Source of the DNA: Kitasatospora viridis
Lineage (GTDB): Bacteria; Actinomycetota; Actinomycetes; Streptomycetales; Streptomycetaceae
Length of the DNA stretch: 64,000 nt
Reading direction: 5' to 3'
Assembly: GCF_007829815.1 (NCBI RefSeq)
Contig: NZ_VIWT01000001.1
Location: 3,123,501-3,187,500 of the forward strand
Shown here: piece after piece, positions 8,916-64,000 of the stretch
Layout of the letters: the number at the start of each line of letters is the position of its first letter
How positions within the stretch are numbered: position 1 is the first letter of the stretch
Translations under genes and position numbers: made by a program
The notes under the pieces: generated by a model
The model's input: only the letters and a program-made list of their open reading frames with translations
The model's database searches: none
What the model was told of the DNA's origin: nothing

Positions 8916-10292
8916 GTGCGCAAGCTGCTGGCAGCGACGGTGGTGGCGGGCCTGGCCCTGACCGCCTGCAGTTCCTCGACCGGGAGCGGCGGTGACGCGG
9001 CGGGCTCGGCGCCCGGCGCCCAGGCGCTCGCCGACGCCAAGGGGGTGACCACGGTCACCTTCTGGCACGCCATGACCGGGACCAACGCCACCGTGCTGAA
9101 CAAGCTGGTGGACCAGTTCAACCAGGAGCACCAGGGCAAGATCGAGGTCAAGCCGGTCTTCCAGGGCACCTACGACGACGTGATCGCCAAGTACAAGGCC
9201 TCGGTGCAGCAGAAGGGCACCCCGTCGCTGGTGCAGGTCTACGACATCGGCACCCGGTTCATGATCGACTCCAAGCAGACCGTCCCGGCCCAGGCCTTCG
9301 CCGACAAGGACGGCTACTCGCTGAGCGACCTGCAGCCCGGCATCCGCAACTACTACACGGCCGGCGGCAAGTTGGCCTCGATGCCCTTCAACTCCTCGAT
9401 GCCGCTGCTCTACCTGAACGCCGACGCCTTCAAGGCGGCCGGCCTGGACCCGAGCAAGCCGCCGCAGACCCTGGCCGAGCTGGGCGACGACGCCAAGAAG
9501 CTGACGGTCAAGGACGCCAGCGGGCAGACCACCCAGTACGGCTTCGGCGCGGCGATCTACGGCTGGTTCGTCGAGGAGCTGCTGGCCGAGTCCGGCACCC
9601 TCTACTGCGACCAGGGCAACGGCCGGGACGCCAAGGCCACCAAGGTGGTCTACGACAGCAGCCAGGGCGTCCAGGTGCTCCAGTGGTGGGCCGACCTGGT
9701 CAAGGGCGGCTACGCGGTCAACACCGGCCCGGTCACCGCGGACGCCCAGGCCGCCTTCAAGGCCGGCCGGATGGCGATGAACCTGGAGTCCACCGGCGTG
9801 CTCGGCGGCTACGTGCAGGCGGCCAAGTTCCAGGTGGCCACCGCGCCCTACCCGAAGATCAACGCCGGCGACCCTGGCGGCCCGGCGATCGGCGGCGCCT
9901 CGCTCTGGATCGACGGCCCGGGCCACTCGGCCGCCGAGCAGCGGGCCTCCTGGGAGTTCGCCAAGTGGCTGGACGAGCCCGCCCAGCAGGCCGCCTGGCA
10001 CACCGGCACCGGCTACTTCCCGGTGAACACCAAGGCGCTCGACGACCCGACCGACAAGGCCTGGCTGGCGAAGAACCCCCAGTTCCAGACCGCGATCGAC
10101 GAGTTGAACGCGACCAAGCCCTCGCCCGCCAACGCGGGCTGCCTGCTCGGCGTGATGCCGCAGGCCCGCAAGGGCGTGGAGGACGCGATCCAGCAGACCA
10201 TCAGCGGCTCCAAGACCGCCCAACAGGCGCTCAGCGACGCGGCCAAGGCGATCCAGCCGGCCATCGACTCCTACAACCAGTCCGTGGGCTGA
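8916..10292 (+). CDS. ABC solute-binding lipoprotein, UgpB-like (glycerol-3-phosphate or sugar)
   Basis: A 458-residue lipoprotein that captures substrate outside the membrane and delivers it to the two upstream permeases. The lipobox LTAC with acylated Cys lies about 20 residues in, followed by a Ser/Gly linker. The fold is CUT1 binding protein. Several stretches look closer to UgpB than to maltose or cellobiose binders: TFWHAMTG, the block MPFNSSMPLLYLNADAFKAAG followed by LDPSKPPQTLAEL, and GVMPQARKGVEDAI near the end. This suggests sn-glycerol-3-phosphate or glycerophosphodiesters, but a sugar is not excluded. The GTG start has GGAGAAGGAG upstream. It is the last gene of the operon and is followed by a hairpin. 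If it is a glycerophosphate system, the UgpC ATPase and UgpQ phosphodiesterase are absent here; a GDPD gene exists 13 kb away. Confidence 0.85.
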   Translation: MRKLLAATVVAGLALTACSSSTGSGGDAAGSAPGAQALADAKGVTTVTFWHAMTGTNATVLNKLVDQFNQEHQGKIEVKPVFQGTYDDVIAKYKASVQQKGTPSLVQVYDIGTRFMIDSKQTVPAQAFADKDGYSLSDLQPGIRNYYTAGGKLASMPFNSSMPLLYLNADAFKAAGLDPSKPPQTLAELGDDAKKLTVKDASGQTTQYGFGAAIYGWFVEELLAESGTLYCDQGNGRDAKATKVVYDSSQGVQVLQWWADLVKGGYAVNTGPVTADAQAAFKAGRMAMNLESTGVLGGYVQAAKFQVATAPYPKINAGDPGGPAIGGASLWIDGPGHSAAEQRASWEFAKWLDEPAQQAAWHTGTGYFPVNTKALDDPTDKAWLAKNPQFQTAIDELNATKPSPANAGCLLGVMPQARKGVEDAIQQTISGSKTAQQALSDAAKAIQPAIDSYNQSVG

Positions 10293-10330
10293 CCCGCCCG
10301 GCCCGCCCGGCCCGCCTGACCAGGGGGACG

Positions 10331-10357
10331 GCCGACCGGTGAGCAGCGCCGGTCGGC
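10331..10357 (+). terminator. Terminator hairpin after the ABC importer operon
   Basis: A 9-bp stem (10331-10339 with 10349-10357) and 9-base loop, 38 bases after the binding-protein stop. Confidence 0.55.
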
Positions 10358-10418
10358 TGTTCCCACTGATCGCATAGGATGTCCGGCCGAGGGGGCCGGT
10401 GCGGGGAAGAGGAACCAG

Positions 10419-11762
10419 GTGCGCGGAGCGAGCGCAGACGAGGGCACGAAGGACTACGGGTCGAGGACCGGCCGGATCTGGCTGCTCCCTGTCCGCAGAC
10501 ACCACGCCTTGCTGTTGGGCTGGACGGTGCTCTGGTTCCTGATCGTCGAACCCAGCGGCGGCGTCTCCTGGCACTACCTGCGCGAGGGCGAGCAACTGCT
10601 CTTCACCAAGCAGGGCGGCGGTGGCCTGTCGCTCTACGCGCACCACCCCGAACTGCAGATCGGCCCGGTCAGCCTGCTGGCCGCCCGGCTCTTCTCGCCG
10701 TTCTCCGACCACCTGGGCCAAGTGCTGGCCGAGGGCACCATGTCGGTGCTCGGGCTGGTGATGCTGGTCCTGGTCGGGCGCACCGCCGCCTGGTACTACC
10801 GCGGCACCGGCACCAACCACCGCCGGCTCCAGCAGCGGATCCTGATCGCGGGCCTGGCCTTCATCCCGATGTGGGTCGAGGTCTCGGTCCGGTTCGCGCA
10901 CCTCGACGACGTGCTGGCGCTCTTCTTCACCATGCTCGCGGTGCACGCGCTGGTGCGGCAGCAACCCGTCGCGGTCGGCATCTTCCTGGCCCTCGCGGTG
11001 GACTCCAAACCGTGGGCGATCTCCTTCCTGCCGCTGATCCTGGCGCTGCCCCGGCAGTACTGGTGGCGCACCTTCCTCTGGTTCTGCGGCCTGGTCGCGA
11101 TCGCCTGGCTGCCGTTCTACCTGGGCAACCTGGGCTCGATGGCGGCGGCCAAGTTCACCATCCCCAACCAGCCCGCCTCCTCGCTGCGCTGGCTGGGCGT
11201 CTCCGACCCGTCCACCCCGGTGTGGGACCGGCCGGCCCAGTTCGCGATCGGCATGGGCCTGGGCGTCCTGGCGGTGCGGCGCGGGCGCTGGCCGGCCGTG
11301 GTGCTGGTCGGGGCGAACGCCCGGATCCTGCTCGACCCGAGCGTCTACACCTACTACACGGCCTCGATCCTGCTCGGCACCCTGCTCTGGGACGCGGTCG
11401 GCCAGCGCCGCCTGGTCCCGTGGTGGAGCTGGATCGCGCTGGCCGCGCTCTACGGCGGCGCGCTCGCGCCGGTCTCCGACTCGACCAAGGGCATGGTCCG
11501 GCTGGCCTTCGTGGTGGTCTCCACCGCCTACGTGCTGCTCTGGCCGACCAAACAGCCGCGCAAGCGCGGCCGGGCCGGCCGCGGCAGGGGCTCCGGCCGG
11601 CGCGGCGGCACCCCGGTGGAGCGGCCCACCCTGGCGCTCACCCCGGTCGCCGCACCGGTCGGCGCCCCGGTGCCCGCCCAGGGCGGCGGCCGCCGGGCCC
11701 GCGGCCGCGGCGGCCCGGTGCCGCGCGAGGGCGAGAACCGGGCGCCCGCGGCGACCCGCTAA
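10419..11762 (+). CDS. Polytopic membrane protein, GT-C glycosyltransferase-like
   Basis: A 447-residue protein with about nine to ten predicted membrane segments between residues 25 and 385 and a basic Arg/Gly-rich cytoplasmic tail (residues 385-447). The layout and an acidic pair after an early loop (FAHLDDVLAL) recall the GT-C fold of polyprenyl-phosphate-dependent mannosyltransferases (DUF2029-type). That fold adds sugars on the outer face of the membrane, but I see no decisive motif. The GTG start has GAAGAGGA upstream. The stop codon overlaps the stop of the convergent aquaporin gene. No glycan genes are adjacent. Alternative: a membrane protein of other function. Confidence 0.6.
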   Translation: MRGASADEGTKDYGSRTGRIWLLPVRRHHALLLGWTVLWFLIVEPSGGVSWHYLREGEQLLFTKQGGGGLSLYAHHPELQIGPVSLLAARLFSPFSDHLGQVLAEGTMSVLGLVMLVLVGRTAAWYYRGTGTNHRRLQQRILIAGLAFIPMWVEVSVRFAHLDDVLALFFTMLAVHALVRQQPVAVGIFLALAVDSKPWAISFLPLILALPRQYWWRTFLWFCGLVAIAWLPFYLGNLGSMAAAKFTIPNQPASSLRWLGVSDPSTPVWDRPAQFAIGMGLGVLAVRRGRWPAVVLVGANARILLDPSVYTYYTASILLGTLLWDAVGQRRLVPWWSWIALAALYGGALAPVSDSTKGMVRLAFVVVSTAYVLLWPTKQPRKRGRAGRGRGSGRRGGTPVERPTLALTPVAAPVGAPVPAQGGGRRARGRGGPVPREGENRAPAATR

Positions 11763-12463
11763 GCCTGCGTCACTTCGGTGCCGGCCGGCCCGAAGAGCGC
11801 CCGGACCAGCAGCAGCCCGAGCGCCGCGCCGGCCAGCTGGCCCAGCAGGTAGCCCGGCACCGAGGCGGGGGCGATCCCGGTGAAGCTGTCGTTCACCGCC
11901 CGGGCCAGGGTGAGCGCCGGGTTGGCGAAGCTCCCGGACGGGGTGCCCCAGATCCCGGCGGCGATCCAGGCCGCCACGGCCACCGGCGCGTACCGGGCCC
12001 GCCCGGCCCGGCCCAGCCCGAAGACGACCAGCAGTAGCACCGCGGTGGCCACCAGCTCGCCGGTCCACACCCCGGGGCCGCTGCGGCCGGTCCGGGCCGC
12101 GCCGATCGTGCCGGTGTCGAACATCAGCCCGGCCAGCACCGACCCGGCGATCCCGCCGAGCAGCTGCGCAGCCGCGTAGCCGGCGGCCTGGCGCCCGGGC
12201 AGCGCGCCGGGCGCGCCCCGCCCGGTCCACCAGACCCCGGCGGTGACCAGCGGGTTCAGGTGCGCCCCGGAGACCGGCGCGAGCAGCGCGATCAGCACGC
12301 CGAGGGTGCAGACCGAGGCGAGGGTGTTGGCCAGCAGCTGCACGCCGACGTCCTGGCTGAGCGCGGCGGCCTGGATGCCGGAGCCGATCAGCGCCAGGGC
12401 CAGCACGCCGGTGCCGACCGCTTCGGCGGCCAGCCGCCGGCCGAGCGGGATAGGTAGGATCAT
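11759..12463 (-). CDS. MIP-family aquaporin-like channel
   Basis: A 234-residue channel of the major intrinsic protein family, expected to carry water, glycerol or another small neutral solute. It has six membrane segments and two half-helices. The first NPA box is the variant NPL (residues 70-72, HLNPLV) and the second is canonical NPA (181-183, FANPAL). Other family marks are GAHLNP and the AEAVGTG start. The ATG at 12463 is chosen because homologous proteins begin just before this AEAxGT helix; a longer open frame has no SD. It converges on the preceding gene with overlapping stops (CTAA) and is divergent from the merR-type gene, so the shared 134-bp region may hold both promoters. The NPL change suggests altered selectivity; some NPA-variant MIPs pass metalloids, but no ars genes are adjacent. 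Confidence 0.85.
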   Translation of the reverse strand: MILPIPLGRRLAAEAVGTGVLALALIGSGIQAAALSQDVGVQLLANTLASVCTLGVLIALLAPVSGAHLNPLVTAGVWWTGRGAPGALPGRQAAGYAAAQLLGGIAGSVLAGLMFDTGTIGAARTGRSGPGVWTGELVATAVLLLVVFGLGRAGRARYAPVAVAAWIAAGIWGTPSGSFANPALTLARAVNDSFTGIAPASVPGYLLGQLAGAALGLLLVRALFGPAGTEVTQA

Positions 12464-52424: not shown

Positions 52425-53642
52425 ATGGACGTCCCCCGCGACCCCGACCGCCGCACTCCCGCCGGGGCGACCCCCCTGCCGAAGAAGACCCCGTTGCCGG
52501 AGAGGCCGGAGAAGCAGCAGACAGCGCAGACGTCGGGGGAGTCGACCGAGCTGCTGGTGCTGCCCGCGCCGACCCAGCCCGGACTGAAGCATCCACAGCC
52601 TGTGGACAGTCGCACCGAGTCGACGGCGACCTCCCGGCGACCGCCGAAGACGGATCCGGACCTGAAGGAGCGCCCGGCCCTCACCCTGCCCGGCTGGGTC
52701 GCGCTGCTCGCGATCCTGCTGGCGGCGGGGTCGGTGCTGGTGGTGCTGTCCCGGGCCGGGGTGCTGCCGATCCTCAGCGGGGTGCCGGACCTGCGGACGG
52801 CGGCGGCGCGGGAGGCCGGCGGTGCCGTGGTGACCGGCTGGATGCTGGCCGCCGTCACGGTGGCGGGGCTGGCCGCGCTGGTCGCGCTGACCGGCCTGCT
52901 GGCCAACCGTTCCGGCGAGACCCGGGTGCTCAGCCGCTGGGGCCGGTACCGGGGCACGGTGCGGCGGGCCGGTCTGCTCTGGGTCAACCCGATGCTGCGC
53001 CGGCGCCGGGTGGACGTCCGGCTGCGGCACTGGCGCAGCGAGCCGGTGCAGGTGACCGACCGGGCGGGGATGCCGATCGTGGTCCGGCTGCTGGTGGTCT
53101 GGCGGATCAAGGACACGGCCCGGGCGGTGTTCGTGGTCGCCGACTACGAGGACTACCTGCGCGAGCAGATCCACGCCGTGCTCACCCGCACCGCCAGCAC
53201 CCTGCCCTGCGACAGCAACGCCGCCCCCGGTCCCGCGCTGCGGGACGGGCAGTGGTTCGGCGACGAGCTGAGCCGCGCACTGGCCGCCGAGGCGGCGCCG
53301 GCCGGCCTGGAGGTCTTCTCGGTGCAGCCGCTGGCCCTGGACTACGCGCCCGAGGTGGCCGAGTCGATGCGCCGGCGCCGGCTCGCCGACCTGGACGCGG
53401 GCCTGCGCACGGTGCTGGTGGACGACGCGGTGGAGGCGGCCGCCCTGGCGGTGCGCCGACTGGAGCGCGCCACCGCCCACGAGTTGGACGAGGCGGCCCG
53501 CAGCGCCCTGATGGAGCAGCTGCTGGTCGCGTTCGTCGCGCCCGCCGGGGTGGCGAGCGCGCTGACCGGTACCGTCCCGGCGCCGGTGGCCCGCGCGGTC
53601 GCCCGCAACGGGACGGCCCGCAAGGAAGGGAACCTCGCATGA
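52425..53642 (+). CDS. SPFH (stomatin/flotillin-like) membrane protein
   Basis: A 405-residue protein with a 75-residue Pro/Lys/Glu-rich cytoplasmic start, two membrane helices (about 88-108 and 135-160) and a SPFH/band 7 domain (about 165-320). Visible blocks are RYRGTVRRAGLLWVNPM, SEPVQVTDRAGMPIVVRLLVVWRI and VAESMRRRRLADLDAG. SPFH proteins form ring- or raft-like scaffolds that organise other membrane proteins. The stop overlaps the start of the NlpC/P60 hydrolase gene (ATGA), so the two probably function together in the cell envelope. ATG 52425 has GAGGA at about 9 bases. Confidence 0.88.
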   Translation: MDVPRDPDRRTPAGATPLPKKTPLPERPEKQQTAQTSGESTELLVLPAPTQPGLKHPQPVDSRTESTATSRRPPKTDPDLKERPALTLPGWVALLAILLAAGSVLVVLSRAGVLPILSGVPDLRTAAAREAGGAVVTGWMLAAVTVAGLAALVALTGLLANRSGETRVLSRWGRYRGTVRRAGLLWVNPMLRRRRVDVRLRHWRSEPVQVTDRAGMPIVVRLLVVWRIKDTARAVFVVADYEDYLREQIHAVLTRTASTLPCDSNAAPGPALRDGQWFGDELSRALAAEAAPAGLEVFSVQPLALDYAPEVAESMRRRRLADLDAGLRTVLVDDAVEAAALAVRRLERATAHELDEAARSALMEQLLVAFVAPAGVASALTGTVPAPVARAVARNGTARKEGNLA

Positions 53643-54739
53643 AGATAGCCACCGGCCCCGCGTTGATCGGCTTCGAGGAGCGGATCGGCGACCTGCCGGC
53701 GCCCCAGCGCTGCGGCTGCGGCCCGTGCCGCTCGCGGGCGGCGCTGCTGGCGCTCCGTCAGCAGCGGGCGTCGGCCCGGGCCGGCCGAATACCGCCGCTG
53801 GCCCTGACGGTCCGTGGGGCCTGCCTGGCCACCACGGTGCTCTCCGGGGCCGGCGTGCTCGGCCTCGGCGCGGGCGTCGCGCACGCCGAGCCGGCCCCCA
53901 GCCACGCGGGGTGGGACGGCTCGCGCTACTGGTTCAAGAACGCGGCCGGTGAGTGGCGCTACACCAGCCATTACGACGTCTACCTGAGCCGCACGGGTCA
54001 GACGGATCAGCAGTCGCAGCAGTCCCAGCAGTCCCAGCAGTCGCAGGCCGATGACGGCAGCGGGATGAAGCAGGGCTGGGACGGTTCGGTCTACTGGTTC
54101 AAGAACGCGGCGGGCGAGTGGCGCTACACCAGCCATTACGACGTCTACCTGAGCCGGACCGGTCAGACGGATCAGCAGTCGCAGCAGTCCCAACAGTCCC
54201 AGCAGTCGCAGGCCGATGACGGCAGCGGGATGAAGCAGGGCTGGGACGGTTCGGTCTACTGGTTCAAGAACGCGGCGGGCGAGTGGCGCTACACCAGCCA
54301 CTACGACATCTACCTGAGCCGCACCCAGTCCCAGCAACCGACCACCCCGTCGCCCACCGGTACCAGCAGCAGTACCAACAGCACCGAACCCGCCATCGCC
54401 TACGCCCTCGCCCAGCTGGGCAAGCCGTACGTCTGGGGCGGCGACGGGCCGGACGGCTTCGACTGCTCGGGCCTGGTCCAGCAGGCGTACCGCCGGGCCG
54501 GGATCGACCTGCCCCGGGTGGCCGACGACCAGTACGCGGCCACCACCCCGATCAGCCCGGCCCAGCTGCGCCGCGGCGACCTGATCTTCTGGTCCGACAA
54601 CGGCCGCGCCTCCGGCATCCACCACGTGGCCATCTACCTGGGCGACAACCAGTACCTGGAGGCCCCGCGCCCGGGCAAGAACGTCCGCATCTCCACCCTG
54701 AACAGCGGCTACTACCCGACCCAGCTGGGCCGCCCGTAA
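53639..54739 (+). CDS. Secreted NlpC/P60 peptidoglycan endopeptidase with tandem aromatic repeats
   Basis: A 366-residue exported DL-endopeptidase that cuts peptidoglycan cross-bridges. The N-terminal 56 residues before the hydrophobic part include a Cys cluster (RCGCGPC, residues 24-30). The signal-like hydrophobic helix is at about 57-82, with cleavage near AHAEP. Three aromatic repeats begin GWDG at residues 91, 146 and 201 (GWDGSVYWFKNAAGEWRYTS), the first two followed by a Gln/Ser-rich linker. The NlpC/P60 domain (about 250-366) keeps C276 (FDCSG), H329 (HVAIYLG) and a third polar residue near E341 (YLEAP). It is coupled to the SPFH gene by ATGA. The SPFH partner may position it in the membrane. 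Confidence 0.92.
   Translation: MKIATGPALIGFEERIGDLPAPQRCGCGPCRSRAALLALRQQRASARAGRIPPLALTVRGACLATTVLSGAGVLGLGAGVAHAEPAPSHAGWDGSRYWFKNAAGEWRYTSHYDVYLSRTGQTDQQSQQSQQSQQSQADDGSGMKQGWDGSVYWFKNAAGEWRYTSHYDVYLSRTGQTDQQSQQSQQSQQSQADDGSGMKQGWDGSVYWFKNAAGEWRYTSHYDIYLSRTQSQQPTTPSPTGTSSSTNSTEPAIAYALAQLGKPYVWGGDGPDGFDCSGLVQQAYRRAGIDLPRVADDQYAATTPISPAQLRRGDLIFWSDNGRASGIHHVAIYLGDNQYLEAPRPGKNVRISTLNSGYYPTQLGRP
53909..54325 (+). repeat. 165-bp in-frame tandem repeats inside the NlpC/P60 gene
   Basis: Units at 53909-54073 and 54074-54238 and a third partial unit 54239-54325 differ at only a few bases. Each codes 29 aromatic-rich residues plus (in the full units) a 26-residue Gln/Ser linker made of CAGTCG/CAGTCC repeats. 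Confidence 0.95.
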
Positions 54740-57099: not shown

Positions 57100-57978
57100 T
57101 CAGGCCTCGGCGGTCAGCCCCTCGCGCAGCTGGGTGAGGGTCTTGGTGAGCAGCCGGGAGACGTGCATCTGGGAGATGCCGATCTCCTCGCCGATCTGCG
57201 ACTGGGTCAGGTTGCCGAAGAACCGGAGCATGATGATCCGCCGCTCCCGGGCCGGCAGCTTGGCCAGCAGCGGCTTGAGCGACTCGCGGTACTCGACGCC
57301 CTCCAGCGCCAGGTCCTCGTAGCCGAGCCGGTCGGCCAGCGGGCCGTCGCCGTCCTCCTCGCCCGGGCCGGAGTCCAGGGAGCTGGCGGTGTAGGCGTTG
57401 CCGACGGCCAGGCCCTCGACCACGTCCTCCTCGCTGACCCCGAGGCTGACGGCCAGTTCGGCGACGGTGGGGGAGCGGTCCAGCCGCTGGGAGAGCTCGT
57501 CGCCGGCCTTGGTCAGGGCCAGCCGCAGCTCCTGCAGCCGCCGCGGCACCCGGACCGACCAGCTGGTGTCCCGGAAGAACCGCTTGATCTCGCCGACCAC
57601 GGTGGGCATCGCGAAGGTCGGGAACTCCACCCCGCGGTCCGGGTCGAACCGGTCGATCGCCTTGATCAGGCCGATCGTGCCGACCTGGACGATGTCCTCC
57701 ATCGGCTCGTTGCGGCTGCGGAACCGGGCGGCCGCGTAGCGCACCAGCGGCAGGTTCAGCTCGATCAGGGTGTCCCGGACGTAGCCGTGCTCGGTGCTGC
57801 CGGGGGCCGTGCCGGCCAGTCGGCGGAAGAGCGAGCGGGAGAGCGTGCGGGTGTCCAGGGCCGGCGGTGCCGCCGCCGCGGGGCCCGGCTCCGGAGCGTG
57901 CTCGGCGACCGCCGTGCCGGCCTGGGCCGTGCCTTGGCTCGCGCCGTGGATCTCTGTGCCGTCCGGCTCTGCGGACAT
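57100..57978 (-). CDS. SigB/SigF-family stress/development sigma factor (copy 1)
   Basis: A 292-residue sigma factor of the SigB/SigF/SigG group. Regions: 2 (about 72-140, [39 protein letters not shown]), 3 (about 145-225, [19 protein letters not shown]), and 4 (about 240-290, [37 protein letters not shown]). Such factors need anti-sigma/anti-anti-sigma partners; none is adjacent, though GHKL and SpoIIE-type genes exist elsewhere in the window. ATG 57978 has GAGGGGGTGGG ahead. A close paralogue is upstream on the same strand. Confidence 0.93.
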
Positions 57979-58153
57979 GCACCCACCCCCTCGTGACAGG
58001 TCGAACGGGAGCTCACCGGCCGCGGTGGCTCCCCGGTCCGCGCCGAGTTGATCGACGCCCCCCAACCGCTTGCATACCGGAACAACGCCGACGGCAAACC
58101 CGAACGTCGCCAGATGTCACTCGCCGGTAACGCGCAGCAACCCTGACCTGGGC

Positions 58154-59011
58154 TCACTCCTCCCAGGAGTTACCGGTCCTGAGCCTGGTCAGGATCCTGG
58201 AGAGCAGGCGGGAGACGTGCATCTGCGACATACCGAGCTCGTTGGAGATCTGCGACTGCGTCAGGTTGGCGAAGAACCGCAGCATCACGATCCGGCGCTC
58301 CCGCTCCGGCAGCTGCACCAGCAGGTGGCGCACCATGTCCCGGTGCTCCACGTCGGTGAGCGCGGAGTCCTCGTAGCCGAGCCGGTCGAGCAGGGCCAGG
58401 CCGCCCTCGTGCTCCTGGGCTGCCTCCAGCGAGGCGGCGTTGTAGGCCCGGCCGGCGTCCAGGCAGGCCCGCACGTCCTCCTCCGGGATCCGCAGGCAGG
58501 CGGCGATCTCCGGCACCTTGGGGGTGCGGCCCTGGGTGACCGTCAGTTCCTCCATCGCGCCGCTGACCTGGACCCAGAGCTCCTGGAGCCGGCGCGGCAC
58601 GTGCATGGTGCGCACGTTGTCCCGGAAGTAACGTTTGATCTCCCCCAGGATGGTCGGCAGCGCGTAGGTGGGGAACTGCACGCCGCGGCTCGGGTCGAAC
58701 CGGTCGATCGCGTTGATCAGGCCGATGGTGCCGACCTGGACCACGTCCTCCATCGGCTCGTTGCGGCTGCGGAACCGGGTCGCGGCGTACCGCACCAGCG
58801 GGATGTTGACCTCGATCAGCGCGGCCCGGACCTGCTCGCGCTCGGGCGCCTCGGCGGGCAGCTCGGCCAGCCGTTCGAACAGCACCCTGGTCAGGGTGCG
58901 GACGTCGATCGGCCCGCCGGTCCCGGCCGGCTCCGCGGTGGTCCCGCTGGCCGTCCCGCTGTCCGTGCCGCTGTCCGTGCCGGTGTCCGGCTGGCTCTCC
59001 TGGATCGGCAC
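58154..59011 (-). CDS. SigB/SigF-family sigma factor (copy 2)
   Basis: A 285-residue paralogue of the adjacent gene, same domain order: region 2 ([22 protein letters not shown]), region 3 ([19 protein letters not shown]) and region 4 ([37 protein letters not shown]). The N terminus has a short [13 protein letters not shown] repeat encoded by 12-bp DNA repeats. GTG 59011 is the only start after an in-frame stop; GAGGAGGG lies somewhat far (about 12 bases). It is separated from copy 1 by 175 bp and is probably regulated independently, though both lie in one direction. Confidence 0.92.
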
Positions 59012-60141: not shown

Positions 60142-60594
60142 CTAACGCTGGGTGAAGCGCACCTCGGCCTCCGGGGCCAGCCCCAGCTCCTCACCGGTCA
60201 CCGGCTCCCCGGTGCTGATCAGGATGTTGTAGTGGTTCGGGAAGTGGCAGGCGTCGAAGCCGAGCACGGTGCCGACCGGCCGCCCGCCGATCCAGACCGT
60301 GTCGCCCCGGTCGATCACGCCGGCCCGGGAGATCTCGGTGAAGCCCAGGAAGCCGACCCGGTCCACCCGGGTGCCCGGGGCGCCGTCCGCCACGTCGGTG
60401 GTGACCAGCTCGTGCAGCTCGCCCGCCCGCACGCACCGGCTGGCGTACGGCTCCACCGTCATCCCCCGGTCCTCCCGGCGGTGCACCAGCACCTTGACCA
60501 GCTCGCCGGCCACCGCGCGCTTGGCGCCGTCCTCCTGACTGCCGGCGAGCTGACGGCCCGTCGGTGCGGTGCCAGCCAGCGGGCGGGGGATCAT
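60142..60594 (-). CDS. Uncharacterised small protein, last gene of the dehydrogenase operon
   Basis: A 150-residue cytoplasmic protein with no catalytic motif I can recognise. The N-terminal 40 residues are basic, then MTVEPYASRCVRAGELHELV, GFLGFTEISRAGVIDRGDTVWIG, and a C-terminal FDACHFPNHYNILIS. It resembles small uncharacterised proteins found beside amino-acid-type biosynthetic dehydrogenases (possibly the DUF6917 group, not verified). The ATG overlaps the Gfo/Idh stop as ATGA. An operon role, perhaps cyclisation, isomerisation or binding, is an inference. Confidence 0.6.
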   Translation of the reverse strand: MIPRPLAGTAPTGRQLAGSQEDGAKRAVAGELVKVLVHRREDRGMTVEPYASRCVRAGELHELVTTDVADGAPGTRVDRVGFLGFTEISRAGVIDRGDTVWIGGRPVGTVLGFDACHFPNHYNILISTGEPVTGEELGLAPEAEVRFTQR

Positions 60595-61553
60595 CGGGCC
60601 TCCTGGGGGACGCGGATCGCGGTGTGGGTCGCGGTGGTGGCGGCCAGCCGGTAGGCGGCGTGCACCAGTTGCAGGGCGTGCGCGCCGCCGTCGCGGTGGC
60701 GGGCCGGGTCGTCCAGCGCGGCGCCGAAGGCTGCCAGGATCCCCCGGTACTCGTGCCAGAGCGACTCCTTGAAGGCCGGGTGACCGGCCAGCAGGTCGGC
60801 CTGCCGGACGGTGCCGTCGGCCAGCGTCAGCCGGACGTCCTTGCGCTCGCCCGGGTACGACCAGTCGAGCTCCACCCGGGCCCGCACCGGCCGGGCGCCG
60901 TCGGCGACCAGGTCGATCACCGCCTCCCGGTCCAGCCCGGTGGCGTCCCGGTCCACCTCGGCCCGGGTCACCGTCAACGGTGCCTCGCCCAGGCAGCGGC
61001 GGACCAGGTCGAAGGCGTTCGGCCCGTTGTCGGCCACGCAGCCGCCGCCGCAGCGGGCCGGGTCCAGGTACCAGCGGTCCCGGCCGACGTGCTCCTCGAT
61101 CTGCTCGAAGTAGCGCACCCGCACGTGCTTGACGGGCTGGTCCAGGCCGGCCAGCAGCTCCAGCAGCGGGGCGTTGTAGCGGCGGTGGAAGGCGGTGAAG
61201 AGCAGCGTGCCGCGCTCGGCCGCCAGCCGTTCCAGCTCCCGGGCGTCGACCGGGTCGGTGGCCAGCGGCTTCTCCACGCAGACCGGCACGCCCGCCGCCA
61301 GCAGGTCGCGGCAGACCGGGGCGTGCGCGTCGTTGGGGACCGTCACCACCGCGCCGTCCAGCGCCGGTCCGTCGGCCAGCAAGGTCCGGTGGTCGCGGAA
61401 GACCGCCCGGCCGGCCGCCCGGTGCTCGGTCAGCGCGAAGTCGTCCAGGTCGCAGACGGCGGCCAGTTCGAAGCGCGGGTCGGCCTCGATCGCGGCCAGG
61501 TAGAACCGGGAGATGACGCCCAGTCCGATCACGGCGATCCGACGCGGCGTCAT
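60591..61553 (-). CDS. Gfo/Idh/MocA-family oxidoreductase
   Basis: A 320-residue NAD(P)-dependent dehydrogenase. Rossmann motif IGLGVISRFYLAA (about 8-20); the EKPLA motif with catalytic Lys in VCVEKPLATDP (about 93-104); a substrate domain with CGGGCVADNGPNAFDLV and a conserved His in the later part (FKESLWHEYRG). The family acts on sugars, inositols, and in some pathways amino-acid-like imines. ATG overlaps the Ldh-type stop by ATGA, so coupling is strict. The adjoining Ldh-type dehydrogenase and peptidase suggest a dedicated small-molecule route. Confidence 0.88.
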   Translation of the reverse strand: MTPRRIAVIGLGVISRFYLAAIEADPRFELAAVCDLDDFALTEHRAAGRAVFRDHRTLLADGPALDGAVVTVPNDAHAPVCRDLLAAGVPVCVEKPLATDPVDARELERLAAERGTLLFTAFHRRYNAPLLELLAGLDQPVKHVRVRYFEQIEEHVGRDRWYLDPARCGGGCVADNGPNAFDLVRRCLGEAPLTVTRAEVDRDATGLDREAVIDLVADGARPVRARVELDWSYPGERKDVRLTLADGTVRQADLLAGHPAFKESLWHEYRGILAAFGAALDDPARHRDGGAHALQLVHAAYRLAATTATHTAIRVPQEAR

Positions 61554-62761
61554 GCCCGCACCTGCGCAGCCGCGGTGGCGCCGATCGGGCGCGGCGGGGT
61601 CAGGCCGCAGTCCGCGGCCAGCTCGGTCAGCTCCTGGAACCGGGCCGGCGACAGGTGCACCCCGCCGATCAGCTGACGCTGCGCCAATTGGCCCTCCGGG
61701 TGGCCCGGGTAGCCGACCGGGTGCGCCGGGTCGATCGGCGGGCAGCCGAGCAGGGTGGTGAACAGCCCGGCCGCCTGCTCGGCGAAGTCCGCGCCGTCGC
61801 GCAGCGTGCCCGGGGCGATCGCCAGCGCCAGGTAGCCGATGTCGTCGTCCCGGCCGCTCGGACGGCCGTCGCCGTCGAGCGCGGCCGGCTCCGGGCCCAG
61901 GCCCGCGCCGGCCAGCAGCGCGCCCAGCACCTCCACCACCAGGCCCAGCCCGTAGCCCTTGAACGCGCCGGTCGCCGGGTCGCCGCCGAGCCAGAGCAGG
62001 TGCGCCTCGCCCCGGTCGAAGGCGGCCGGGTCGGTCACCGGCGCGCCCTGCTGGTCGGCCAGCCAGCCCGCCGGGACCGGCTGCCCGGCCCGGGCGGCGG
62101 CCCGCACCCGGCCGGTCGGCACCGCCGTGGTGCTCATGTCCAGCACGAACGGGTGCAACCGCCCGCCGGCCGGGGCGGCCACGCTCAGCGGGTTGGTGCC
62201 GAGCATGGTGACCCGCCCGCCCGGCGGCCGGGCGATCCGCTGCCGCCCGCAGTTGGCCGCCAGCAGCCCGATGGCGCCGCGCCGGGCCGCCCGCAGGGTG
62301 TGGAACCCGGCGCAGCCCAGGTGGGTCGCGCCGCGCACCGAGACCAGGCCCACGCCGTACTGCTCGGCCCGTTCGACGGCCAGGTCCATCGCGGCCGGCG
62401 CCGACCAGAGGCCGAGCGCCCGGTGGTCGTCCAGCAGCACGGCGGCGCCCCGGTCGGCCAGCACCTCGGGCTCGGCGGCCGGGTCGGCCCGGCCCTCGTC
62501 GAGCAGCGGCAGGTAGAGCCGGGTGAGGTTGACCAGGCCGTGCGAGGTCAGCCCGGTCAGGTCGCCGTAGCAGAGCGCCTCGGCGGCGGTCCGGGCCCGG
62601 GCGGCGGGCAGCCCGCGGCTGCCGAACACCTCGGCGGTGAAGCGCAGCAGCTCCGGGTAGCGGACGGCCACGCCGGGGCGCGGGCCGGGCGGGGCGGTGC
62701 CGAGCCGGGCGCCGTCGCCCTCGGCGGGGTGGGCGTCGAGCGTGGGGGTCGTCAGCGACAT
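61550..62761 (-). CDS. Ldh/MDH2-family NAD(P)-dependent oxidoreductase
   Basis: A 403-residue member of the malate/L-lactate dehydrogenase-like family (type 2), including delta1-piperideine-2-carboxylate and pyrroline-2-carboxylate reductases. Blocks: YGDLTGLTSHGLVNLTRLY (catalytic His), VSVRGATHLGCAGFHTLRA, TNPLSVAAP, DMSTTAV and AFKGYGLGLVVEVLGALLAG. The substrate is probably a keto or cyclic imino acid. Compared with typical members (about 340 residues), this one is longer by about 30 N-terminal residues. ATG 62761 overlaps the peptidase stop by ten bases. Confidence 0.88.
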   Translation of the reverse strand: MSLTTPTLDAHPAEGDGARLGTAPPGPRPGVAVRYPELLRFTAEVFGSRGLPAARARTAAEALCYGDLTGLTSHGLVNLTRLYLPLLDEGRADPAAEPEVLADRGAAVLLDDHRALGLWSAPAAMDLAVERAEQYGVGLVSVRGATHLGCAGFHTLRAARRGAIGLLAANCGRQRIARPPGGRVTMLGTNPLSVAAPAGGRLHPFVLDMSTTAVPTGRVRAAARAGQPVPAGWLADQQGAPVTDPAAFDRGEAHLLWLGGDPATGAFKGYGLGLVVEVLGALLAGAGLGPEPAALDGDGRPSGRDDDIGYLALAIAPGTLRDGADFAEQAAGLFTTLLGCPPIDPAHPVGYPGHPEGQLAQRQLIGGVHLSPARFQELTELAADCGLTPPRPIGATAAAQVRA

Positions 62762-64000
62762 GCGGCGCGGGCCTCCTGAGCGGATTGGGGGTGCGGGACG
62801 GCGGTGGGGCGGTCGGTGGGCGGGCCGGTGTGCGGTCCGGCGTCGAAGGCCGCCAGCAGGTCGCGGACCGAGCGGGCGAAGCCGGCCAGTTCGGTGGTCC
62901 GGACGAACTCGCCCTCCGCGTGGGCGTGGTTGCCGGCCAGGGTGCCCGGGCCGAGCACCACGGTGCCGGTGCCCGGGTGGCCGGCCAGCCAGATCGCGTC
63001 GCAGGTGAAGCCGGGTTCGCCGGCCGGCCACTCGGCGATCCCGGCCCGGGCCAGCAGCGCGGGCAGCCAGCGCTCGCCGGTCGGCCGCTCCAGCGCGGGC
63101 AGGCCGCGCTTGAGCCAGTCAAGGCGGGTGATCCGGGCCGCGTCCACGGCGGTGCGGGCCAGCAGCGGGTTGGCGGCGAACCGGTCGGCGAAGGCCCGCA
63201 GCCCGTCCGCCAGCGCCTCGGTGACGGCGTGTTCGAGCCGGGCGGCGGTGGCCCGGTCCGGGTAGGCCAGGTTGAGCAGCAGCTCGCCGCGGCCGTACAC
63301 CCGGTTGTGCAGGTGGCCGGTGTGCAGGCCGGCGATGCAGAGCCGGCCGTCGCCCGGGGTGATCGCGCCGGCCAGGTGCTGGGCCAGGAAGCCGAGCAGC
63401 ACGGTGGCGTTGTGGCCGGCGGCGGGCTGGTCGTCCACCGCGTCCTGGCCGTCGGTGGTGATCCGGGCGGTCATCGCGGCCGTGCAGTGGGTCAGCGCGA
63501 GGTTGCCGGTGGGTTCGCAGAAGACGTTGAGCCGGCCGTAGTGGCCGGCCGCGACCAGCGGGCGGGTGCCGATGGTGCCGAGCGCGCCGCCCTCCTCGCC
63601 GGCCACCGCCTGGACCAGCACGGCCAGCCGGTCGGCCAGTCCGGGGCGCTCGGCCAGCGCCGCCCGGATCCCGGCCAGCAGGGCGACCGCCGGGCCCTTG
63701 GCGTCCACCGCGCCGCGGCCGTGGAAGGTGCCGGTGGCCGGGTCGTGCCGGACCGGCTCCAGGCCGGCCACGGTGTCCAGGTGCACGTTGAACATCACGG
63801 TGCGCTCGCGCGGGGTGCCCGGGCGGCCGAGCCGCAGCAGCAGCGAGGGCTGCTCGGTGAGGAAGCCGGGGTCGGCGGCGGCGCCGCGCACCGGCAGCGG
63901 CACGTCCGGCAGTTCGGCCCAGGCGCGGTCCGGGGCGGCGTGCCGGGCGACCGTGAAGCCGAGCGGGGCGGCGGCCGCCGCGTACACCCGCTGGGCCTCC
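62752..64000 (-). CDS. M20-family metallopeptidase/deacylase, N terminus outside window
   Basis: At least 416 residues in view; the frame is open at the right edge of the window, so the start lies beyond 64000. Metal and catalytic motifs: NVHLDTV (His, Asp), GRGAVDAKGP (bridging Asp), GEEGG (catalytic Glu), FCEPT (Glu) and GNHAHAEGEF (His). It belongs to the ArgE/DapE/LysK group of deacylases. The DAKGP loop resembles LysK-type enzymes that release amino acids from carrier protein LysW more than classic DMKGG ArgE or DapE, which is an inference from memory. It is the first visible gene of the operon with the two dehydrogenases and may release a pathway intermediate. Confidence 0.85.
   Translation of the reverse strand, partial: EAQRVYAAAAAPLGFTVARHAAPDRAWAELPDVPLPVRGAAADPGFLTEQPSLLLRLGRPGTPRERTVMFNVHLDTVAGLEPVRHDPATGTFHGRGAVDAKGPAVALLAGIRAALAERPGLADRLAVLVQAVAGEEGGALGTIGTRPLVAAGHYGRLNVFCEPTGNLALTHCTAAMTARITTDGQDAVDDQPAAGHNATVLLGFLAQHLAGAITPGDGRLCIAGLHTGHLHNRVYGRGELLLNLAYPDRATAARLEHAVTEALADGLRAFADRFAANPLLARTAVDAARITRLDWLKRGLPALERPTGERWLPALLARAGIAEWPAGEPGFTCDAIWLAGHPGTGTVVLGPGTLAGNHAHAEGEFVRTTELAGFARSVRDLLAAFDAGPHTGPPTDRPTAVPHPQSAQEARAACR

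Follow-up and report, generated by a model that had tools for sequence, protein, structure and literature searches.

What pathway is served by four overlapping genes at the right edge of an analysed stretch of the Kitasatospora viridis genome? The stretch, hereafter the window, comprised 64,000 nucleotides (positions 3123501-3187500 of the contig; genome 10.1 Mb). A sequence-only reading of the window had placed the four genes in one pathway, possibly a specialised amino-acid pathway running on a LysW-type carrier and continuing beyond the edge.

Gene content of the operon and the surrounding cluster

The four reading frames and their families agreed with Pfam (Table 1), and the overlaps were as first described: 10 bases between M20 and Ldh_2, 4 between Ldh_2 and Gfo/Idh 1, and 4 between Gfo/Idh 1 and DUF6917. 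The DAKGP loop reported for the M20 protein was present, and an alignment of 79 M20 sequences showed it to be at least 97% conserved. The M20 gene likely starts at the GTG at 64122, 122 bases beyond the window edge. A GTG at 63987 was ruled out as the start because upstream of it lie residues that at least 97% of the 79 homologues share.

Table 1. Genes of the cluster, numbered from the first letter of the window; positions above 64000 lie beyond its right edge.
Feature	Position	Strand	Score or remark
DUF6917 (PF21891) protein	60142..60594	-	150 aa as called; last operon gene; Pfam 188.8 bits, cut-off 27
Gfo/Idh/MocA oxidoreductase 1 (Gfo/Idh 1)	60591..61553	-	PF01408 74.6 bits, PF22725 35.9 bits
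Ldh_2 (malate/L-lactate dehydrogenase family) oxidoreductase	61550..62761	-	PF02615 309.3 bits
M20 metallohydrolase, DAKGP loop	62752..64000, past window edge	-	PF01546 48.3 bits, cut-off 24.6
Xylose-isomerase-like TIM barrel	64116-65090	-	family score 101.4 bits
Second Gfo/Idh (Gfo/Idh 2)	65080-66114	-	11-base overlap with TIM barrel
DegT1 aminotransferase	66352-67554	+	357.9 bits (DegT/DnrJ/EryC1/StrS family)
DegT2 aminotransferase	67551-68687	+	286.9 bits (DegT/DnrJ/EryC1/StrS family)
Secreted protein, 167 residues	68979-69482	+	apparent signal peptide; no Pfam match
Methyltransferase	69488-70360	+	
UbiA prenyltransferase	70386-71348	+	65.0 bits, cut-off 34.2
AMP-forming ligase (AMP-binding PF00501)	71345-72934	+	171.1 bits
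FAD oxidoreductase	72980-74299	+	last gene of divergent arm

The predicted continuation past the right edge was borne out: two more overlapping genes lie upstream, followed by a divergent arm. The four genes in the window form the downstream part of a six-gene arm, namely Gfo/Idh 2, TIM barrel, M20, Ldh_2, Gfo/Idh 1 and DUF6917. Aminotransferases, which the sequence-only reading had listed among the genes to look for within 10 kb, were represented by the two DegT genes at the start of the divergent arm. The six-gene arm is best read as part of a specialised-metabolism cluster with 12 or more genes. Genes outside both ends of the cluster were unrelated in appearance: sigma factors, a Dabb protein and a upp-like gene.

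Conservation and distribution

Tight gene overlap alone is ordinary in a high-GC actinomycete; the above-chance signal is gene order conserved in other genomes, not the overlap itself. A DUF6917 scan of named genomes returned 242 relatives, and the best 80 loci were analysed; the conservation values below therefore describe close relatives only. Most of these loci came from named actinomycete genera, including Streptomyces, Amycolatopsis, Lentzea, Saccharopolyspora and Actinomadura. Counts were made on the 75 loci whose upstream flank reached 6.5 kb or more, five of the 80 being too short. The six-gene order was kept in 72 of the 75 loci (exceptions: L053, L066 and L076), and both DegT genes were found in 70. 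The expectation of a set conserved in other genomes and belonging to one pathway was supported.

Within the limited flank available, 47 of the 75 loci carried UbiA, 51 carried a nucleotide-sugar dehydrogenase and 52 encoded an EF-hand protein. Eight further genomes were viewed over 39-60 kb, and all twelve genes common to the window's cluster were present in each (8/8). The same eight genomes all carried the EF-hand gene, and two carried a UDP-sugar dehydrogenase in the cluster.

These counts bear on whether the cluster is one functional unit. The eight-gene core (six-gene arm and DegT pair) might by itself make an amino-sugar or aminocyclitol unit, with UbiA, the FAD enzyme and the ligase serving a separate neighbouring function. 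The lower frequency of UbiA relative to the DegT pair would fit such a division, as would accessory genes that vary between groups of loci. However, the missing UbiA genes are at least partly a product of flank length, as UbiA, FAD enzyme, ligase and methyltransferase were found together in 8/8 wider views, and in one group isoprenoid genes directly adjoin the core. We hold a self-sufficient core to be unlikely.

As a flank control, the 80 loci were searched for five genes from the left of the cluster and three from the right. For four of the five left-flank genes the sole match was L032, the locus of the nearest relative, Streptomyces tateyamensis; the fifth had one 28% match, and the three right-flank genes had no match in the 80 loci. 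Since the flanks are not common to the relatives, the cluster is a unit sitting in different places.

The cluster was uncommon in the class sample, occurring in 11 of 394 genomes (own genome included). DUF6917 was found in one of 396 genomes of the phylum sample, the genome studied here, and in one of 60 genomes sampled separately around G249 (own or seed genome included). Two of 72,556 plasmid records had a DUF6917 match; the only one of these records from outside the actinomycetes was that of Thermomicrobium roseum. Two copies were present in S. violens (L037, L053) and in S. ochraceiscleroticus (L047, L064). A divergent locus, L031, keeps only the TIM barrel, M20, Gfo/Idh 1 and DUF6917.

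The same families would also suit an ordinary operon for the breakdown of a sugar derivative or a peptide, each being known in catabolism too. Against this, the distribution is patchy, the DegT pair, UbiA, methyltransferase and AMP-forming ligase travel along with the operon, and no transporter or regulator was recognised among the genes of the window's cluster. Catabolism is accordingly a very unlikely role.

The LysW-carrier question

The DAKGP loop had suggested a LysK-like deacylase acting on LysW-bound amino acids. On the [LysW]-lysine hydrolase model NF003367 (NCBIfam; cut-off 363) the operon M20 scored 38.3 bits. Another M20 of the same genome with a DAKGP loop (L136:14403-15500) scored 349.5 bits and adjoins a true LysW. 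This LysW, the sole LysW-like match in the genome (contig positions 940154-940309; 51 bits; ending in EEDWGE), lies 2.24 Mb from the operon; its neighbours are a gene resembling ArgC/LysY, an NRPS-like gene and the DAKGP M20, a LysK belonging to this locus. Because the LysW locus owns a DAKGP LysK, the loop is not diagnostic.

Neither of the other two partners named by the sequence-only reading was found: the cluster holds no LysW carrier, and no ATP-grasp domain (LysX/ArgX type) was detected in the scanned cluster proteins, the ligase being AMP-forming. Besides the loop, one observation pointed towards LysW chemistry, namely that a distant DUF6917 homologue in Thermomicrobium roseum, located beside a thiamine-diphosphate enzyme, has a lysX gene in its vicinity. 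The M20 score, the missing carrier and ATP-grasp ligase, and the existence of a LysW locus elsewhere that has a LysK of its own led us to reject the LysW/LysK hypothesis, which we regard as extremely improbable. With no LysW or ATP-grasp protein, an AMP-forming ligase and DegTs of the sugar type, an amino-acid pathway is the least likely part of what had been proposed for these genes.

Putative sugar-processing enzymes

Catalytic residues were intact throughout the core. The PLP lysines of the DegT family members, DegT1 K206 and DegT2 K193, were at least 97% conserved, as was the EKP motif of Gfo/Idh 1 (89 sequences). The best solved relatives of the DegTs included 2oga, 7b0d, WbpE and QdtB (245-181 bits over both proteins); 2oga, WbpE and QdtB are C3 aminotransferases of nucleotide sugars. 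WbpE scored 225 bits for DegT1 and 202 bits for DegT2, compared with 125 and 98 bits for the 2-deoxy-scyllo-inosose aminotransferase 2c7t and 125 and 113 bits for AHBA synthase. By these scores, both DegTs are far closer to nucleotide-sugar aminotransferases such as WbpE and QdtB than to the cyclitol or AHBA types. The extra dehydrogenase of many relatives passed the cut-off of an NDP-sugar dehydrogenase model, and the UDP-HexNAc types scored second best.

The TIM barrel conserves E169, D199, H223 and E267, presumably the metal ligands known for the family. It had one weak solved relative by sequence. Its predicted model (pLDDT 94.7) matched ketose epimerases and isomerases at Z of about 26; 2-hydroxy-3-keto-glucal hydratase was among the structural matches (Z 24.3), and the 3-keto-glucoside 4-epimerase YcjR was in the Foldseek list. 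A substrate could not be assigned because these various isomerases and epimerases lie within a few Z units of one another.

The M20 protein has a complete metal and catalytic set, with H127, D129, D153, E189, E190, E216 and H414 at least 97% conserved (79 sequences). In Ldh_2, His74 and His147 were conserved to the same degree (87 sequences). M20 and Ldh_2, which overlap here and are neighbours in the 72 complete loci, might together form a nitrogen heterocycle: M20 would release the amino group of an amino-uronic or keto acid, this group would close on the ketone as a cyclic imine, and Ldh_2 would reduce the imine. The Ldh_2 family includes cyclic-imine reductases, and a 6-dehydrogenase of the UDP-HexNAc type could supply the acid. 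However, among named models Ldh_2 scored best on malate/lactate/ureidoglycolate and sulfolactate dehydrogenases, all far below cut-off, and we consider ring closure unlikely.

The DUF6917 protein

Eleven aligned DUF6917 homologues share the stretch GFDxCHxPNHYN. The predicted model (mean pLDDT 94.6) is an all-beta barrel with no Foldseek match at E <=0.001. The best VIA-align match (Z 4.4; 75 residues at 3.3 A) was to domain-II-type barrels of translation factors. Matches to a predicted model at this level are too weak to suggest a function, nor are they proof of a new fold. As a guess, DUF6917 may be an enzyme or a subunit working with the TIM barrel, because the linkage of the two is constant and persists even in the divergent locus L031.

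UbiA and the isoprenoid link

Both Asp-rich motifs of UbiA were kept across 55 sequences (D74, D75, D81 and D84; N213, D216 and D220). Compared with the named subfamilies (4-hydroxybenzoate, DHNA, ChlG; cut-offs of at least 225), its best score was 23.7 bits and no cut-off was reached. A prenyl-transfer gene, as expected of a meroterpenoid cluster, is present in the window's cluster and in 8/8 wider-view genomes.

In 9 of the 80 loci DUF6917 is followed by dxs; ispG occurs in eight and ispH in six. These genes were identified by eye, and dxs also by its resemblance to a gene in an annotated plasmid sequence. DUF6917 and DXS form a single reading frame in L105 and in plasmid L112. The annotated record of this plasmid lists DegT, DegT, methyltransferase, UbiA, an adenylate-forming enzyme and a nucleotide-sugar dehydrogenase; some 30 kb separate this set from the six-gene arm on the plasmid. 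The isoprenoid-linked loci group together with L066 at a support of 0.49, too weak for a firm clade.

Two further observations concern isoprenoid genes. An apparent MEP link of L101 and L102 comes solely from 28% FAD-monooxygenase matches. GGPP-synthase gave five tentative matches, obtained with a query that contains stop codons, and these were left out of account.

Proposed pathway

At a probability of roughly 55%, we read the locus from its gene families as a biosynthetic cluster for a prenylated, sugar-derived amine. Each step of the following scheme, including substrate, order, pairing of enzymes with substrates and product, is one that we infer from family membership and linkage. The starting sugar would probably be nucleotide-linked, and in many strains the UDP-sugar 6-dehydrogenase would first oxidise it to the uronic acid. 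A Gfo/Idh enzyme would oxidise the sugar to a keto-sugar and a DegT enzyme would aminate it, and this sequence would run twice. Isomerisation or epimerisation of a keto intermediate may fall to the metal-dependent TIM barrel, possibly together with DUF6917. M20 would remove an N-acyl group, and Ldh_2 would reduce a keto or imino function. UbiA would then join the amine-bearing unit to an isoprenoid, with finishing by the AMP-forming ligase, the methyltransferase and the FAD enzyme. The nucleotide-sugar substrate, the target of M20 hydrolysis and the UbiA acceptor are the least certain elements of the scheme.

Several features count against a prenylated, sugar-derived amine. The window's own cluster is without a UDP-sugar 6-dehydrogenase, with only 44%-identical homologues elsewhere in the genome, and just two of the eight wider views show one in the cluster. 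No glycosyltransferase was recognised in the cluster, nor, in the window's case, a prenyl-diphosphate synthase. UbiA scored weakly on all the named subfamilies, and the conservation counts cover close relatives only.

A more specific proposal, which we hold to be improbable, is that of a new meroterpenoid pathway widespread among actinomycetes. In it, a UDP-amino-uronic sugar would be doubly aminated, deacylated, closed to an N-heterocycle and prenylated by UbiA. DUF6917 would represent a new family of enzymes or subunits acting with the TIM barrel and Gfo/Idh on keto-sugars, and one group of strains would bring its own isoprenoid supply, including the DUF6917-DXS fusion.

The fixed order and intact catalytic residues behind the 242 DUF6917 matches from a single public genome collection (80 read) imply a product that many actinomycetes keep. 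The pathway proposed here, a route to a prenylated sugar-derived amine, would couple sugar-derived amine chemistry to prenylation and would give DUF6917 a first function and genome mining a concrete target. No paper recognisably on the cluster was found in the open-access library searched; subscription journals lay mostly outside this scope, and a published name may exist. If the product has already been published under another name, the value would lie in naming the pathway of DUF6917.

Comparison with known systems

LysW-dependent pathways, such as those of the vazabitide type, share with the cluster an M20 with a DAKGP loop. The cluster differs in having no recognised carrier, ATP-grasp ligase or LysY/LysZ-type gene and an M20 far below the LysK cut-off.

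The 3-keto-glycoside systems combine a Gfo/Idh 3-dehydrogenase with a TIM barrel (e.g., YcjR, 2-hydroxy-3-keto-glucal hydratase), and the cluster likewise has Gfo/Idh enzymes with a xylose-isomerase-like TIM barrel. No glycosidase was recognised in the cluster, which adds aminotransferases, M20 and Ldh_2.

Aminocyclitol pathways of the hygromycin A and streptomycin type use Gfo/Idh and DegT pairs. The cluster has such pairs too, but its DegTs score about 100 bits lower on 2c7t than on WbpE.

WbpA, WbpB and WbpE form the route to the UDP-2,3-diamino uronic acids of the Pseudomonas O-antigen. The likeness extends to the Gfo/Idh and DegT types, to the UDP-sugar 6-dehydrogenase of many relatives and to WbpE itself, one of the best solved relatives of DegT1 and DegT2 alike. 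The window's cluster differs from this route in its lack of a 6-dehydrogenase and of recognised polysaccharide genes, and in its possession of two DegT and two Gfo/Idh genes together with the TIM barrel, M20, Ldh_2, DUF6917 and prenylation genes.

Accessory genes and DUF6917 in other contexts

Among the best 80 of 242 DUF6917 relatives, 75 loci had at least 6.5 kb of upstream sequence, and 52 of these 75 carried a cluster-linked EF-hand (calerythrin-like) protein; none was found in the window's own cluster. The nucleotide-sugar dehydrogenase was repeatedly adjoined by a small, apparently secreted protein with no Pfam match.

In two Streptomyces records, DUF6917 and 1-deoxy-D-xylulose-5-phosphate synthase formed a single in-frame fusion. 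A distant DUF6917 homologue on a Thermomicrobium roseum plasmid (L113:8898-14194) had as neighbours lysX, a gene of the proline racemase family and one for a thiamine-diphosphate enzyme.

Streptomyces violens held two copies: a complete one (L037) and another (L053) in which Ldh_2 and DUF6917 were the only six-gene-arm members detected. The latter is either degenerate or divergent in sequence.

Other genes in the window and the LysW locus

Two sigma-70 genes in the window were adjacent, and both had homologues at the locus of the nearest relative, S. tateyamensis (L032). An NlpC/P60 protein encoded in the window contained three near-identical copies of a repeat centred on WDGSxYWFKNAAGEWRYTSHYD, separated by SQQ-rich linkers.

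The K. viridis LysW region (L136), a locus separate from the window cluster, encoded LysW, an ArgC/LysY-like protein, its own LysK-type M20 and NRPS-like and acyl-CoA-dehydrogenase-like proteins. Its product is probably an NRPS compound containing an amino acid built on LysW.

Coordinates of accessory, fused and neighboring genes
Feature	Location	Strand	Remark
EF-hand (calerythrin-like) protein	L095:10472-11023		also at further loci
Small, apparently secreted protein	L048:12339-12662		and similar
DUF6917-1-deoxy-D-xylulose-5-phosphate synthase fusion	L105, about 9986-12331		
DUF6917-1-deoxy-D-xylulose-5-phosphate synthase fusion	L112:19986-22313		
NlpC/P60 protein	window 53252-54739		
Sigma-70 factor (regions 2, 3, 4)	window 57100-58065	minus	
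Sigma-70 factor (regions 2, 3, 4)	window 58154-59011	minus	
LysW gene	G000:C1:940154-940309		inside L136 (G000:C1:930000-950000)
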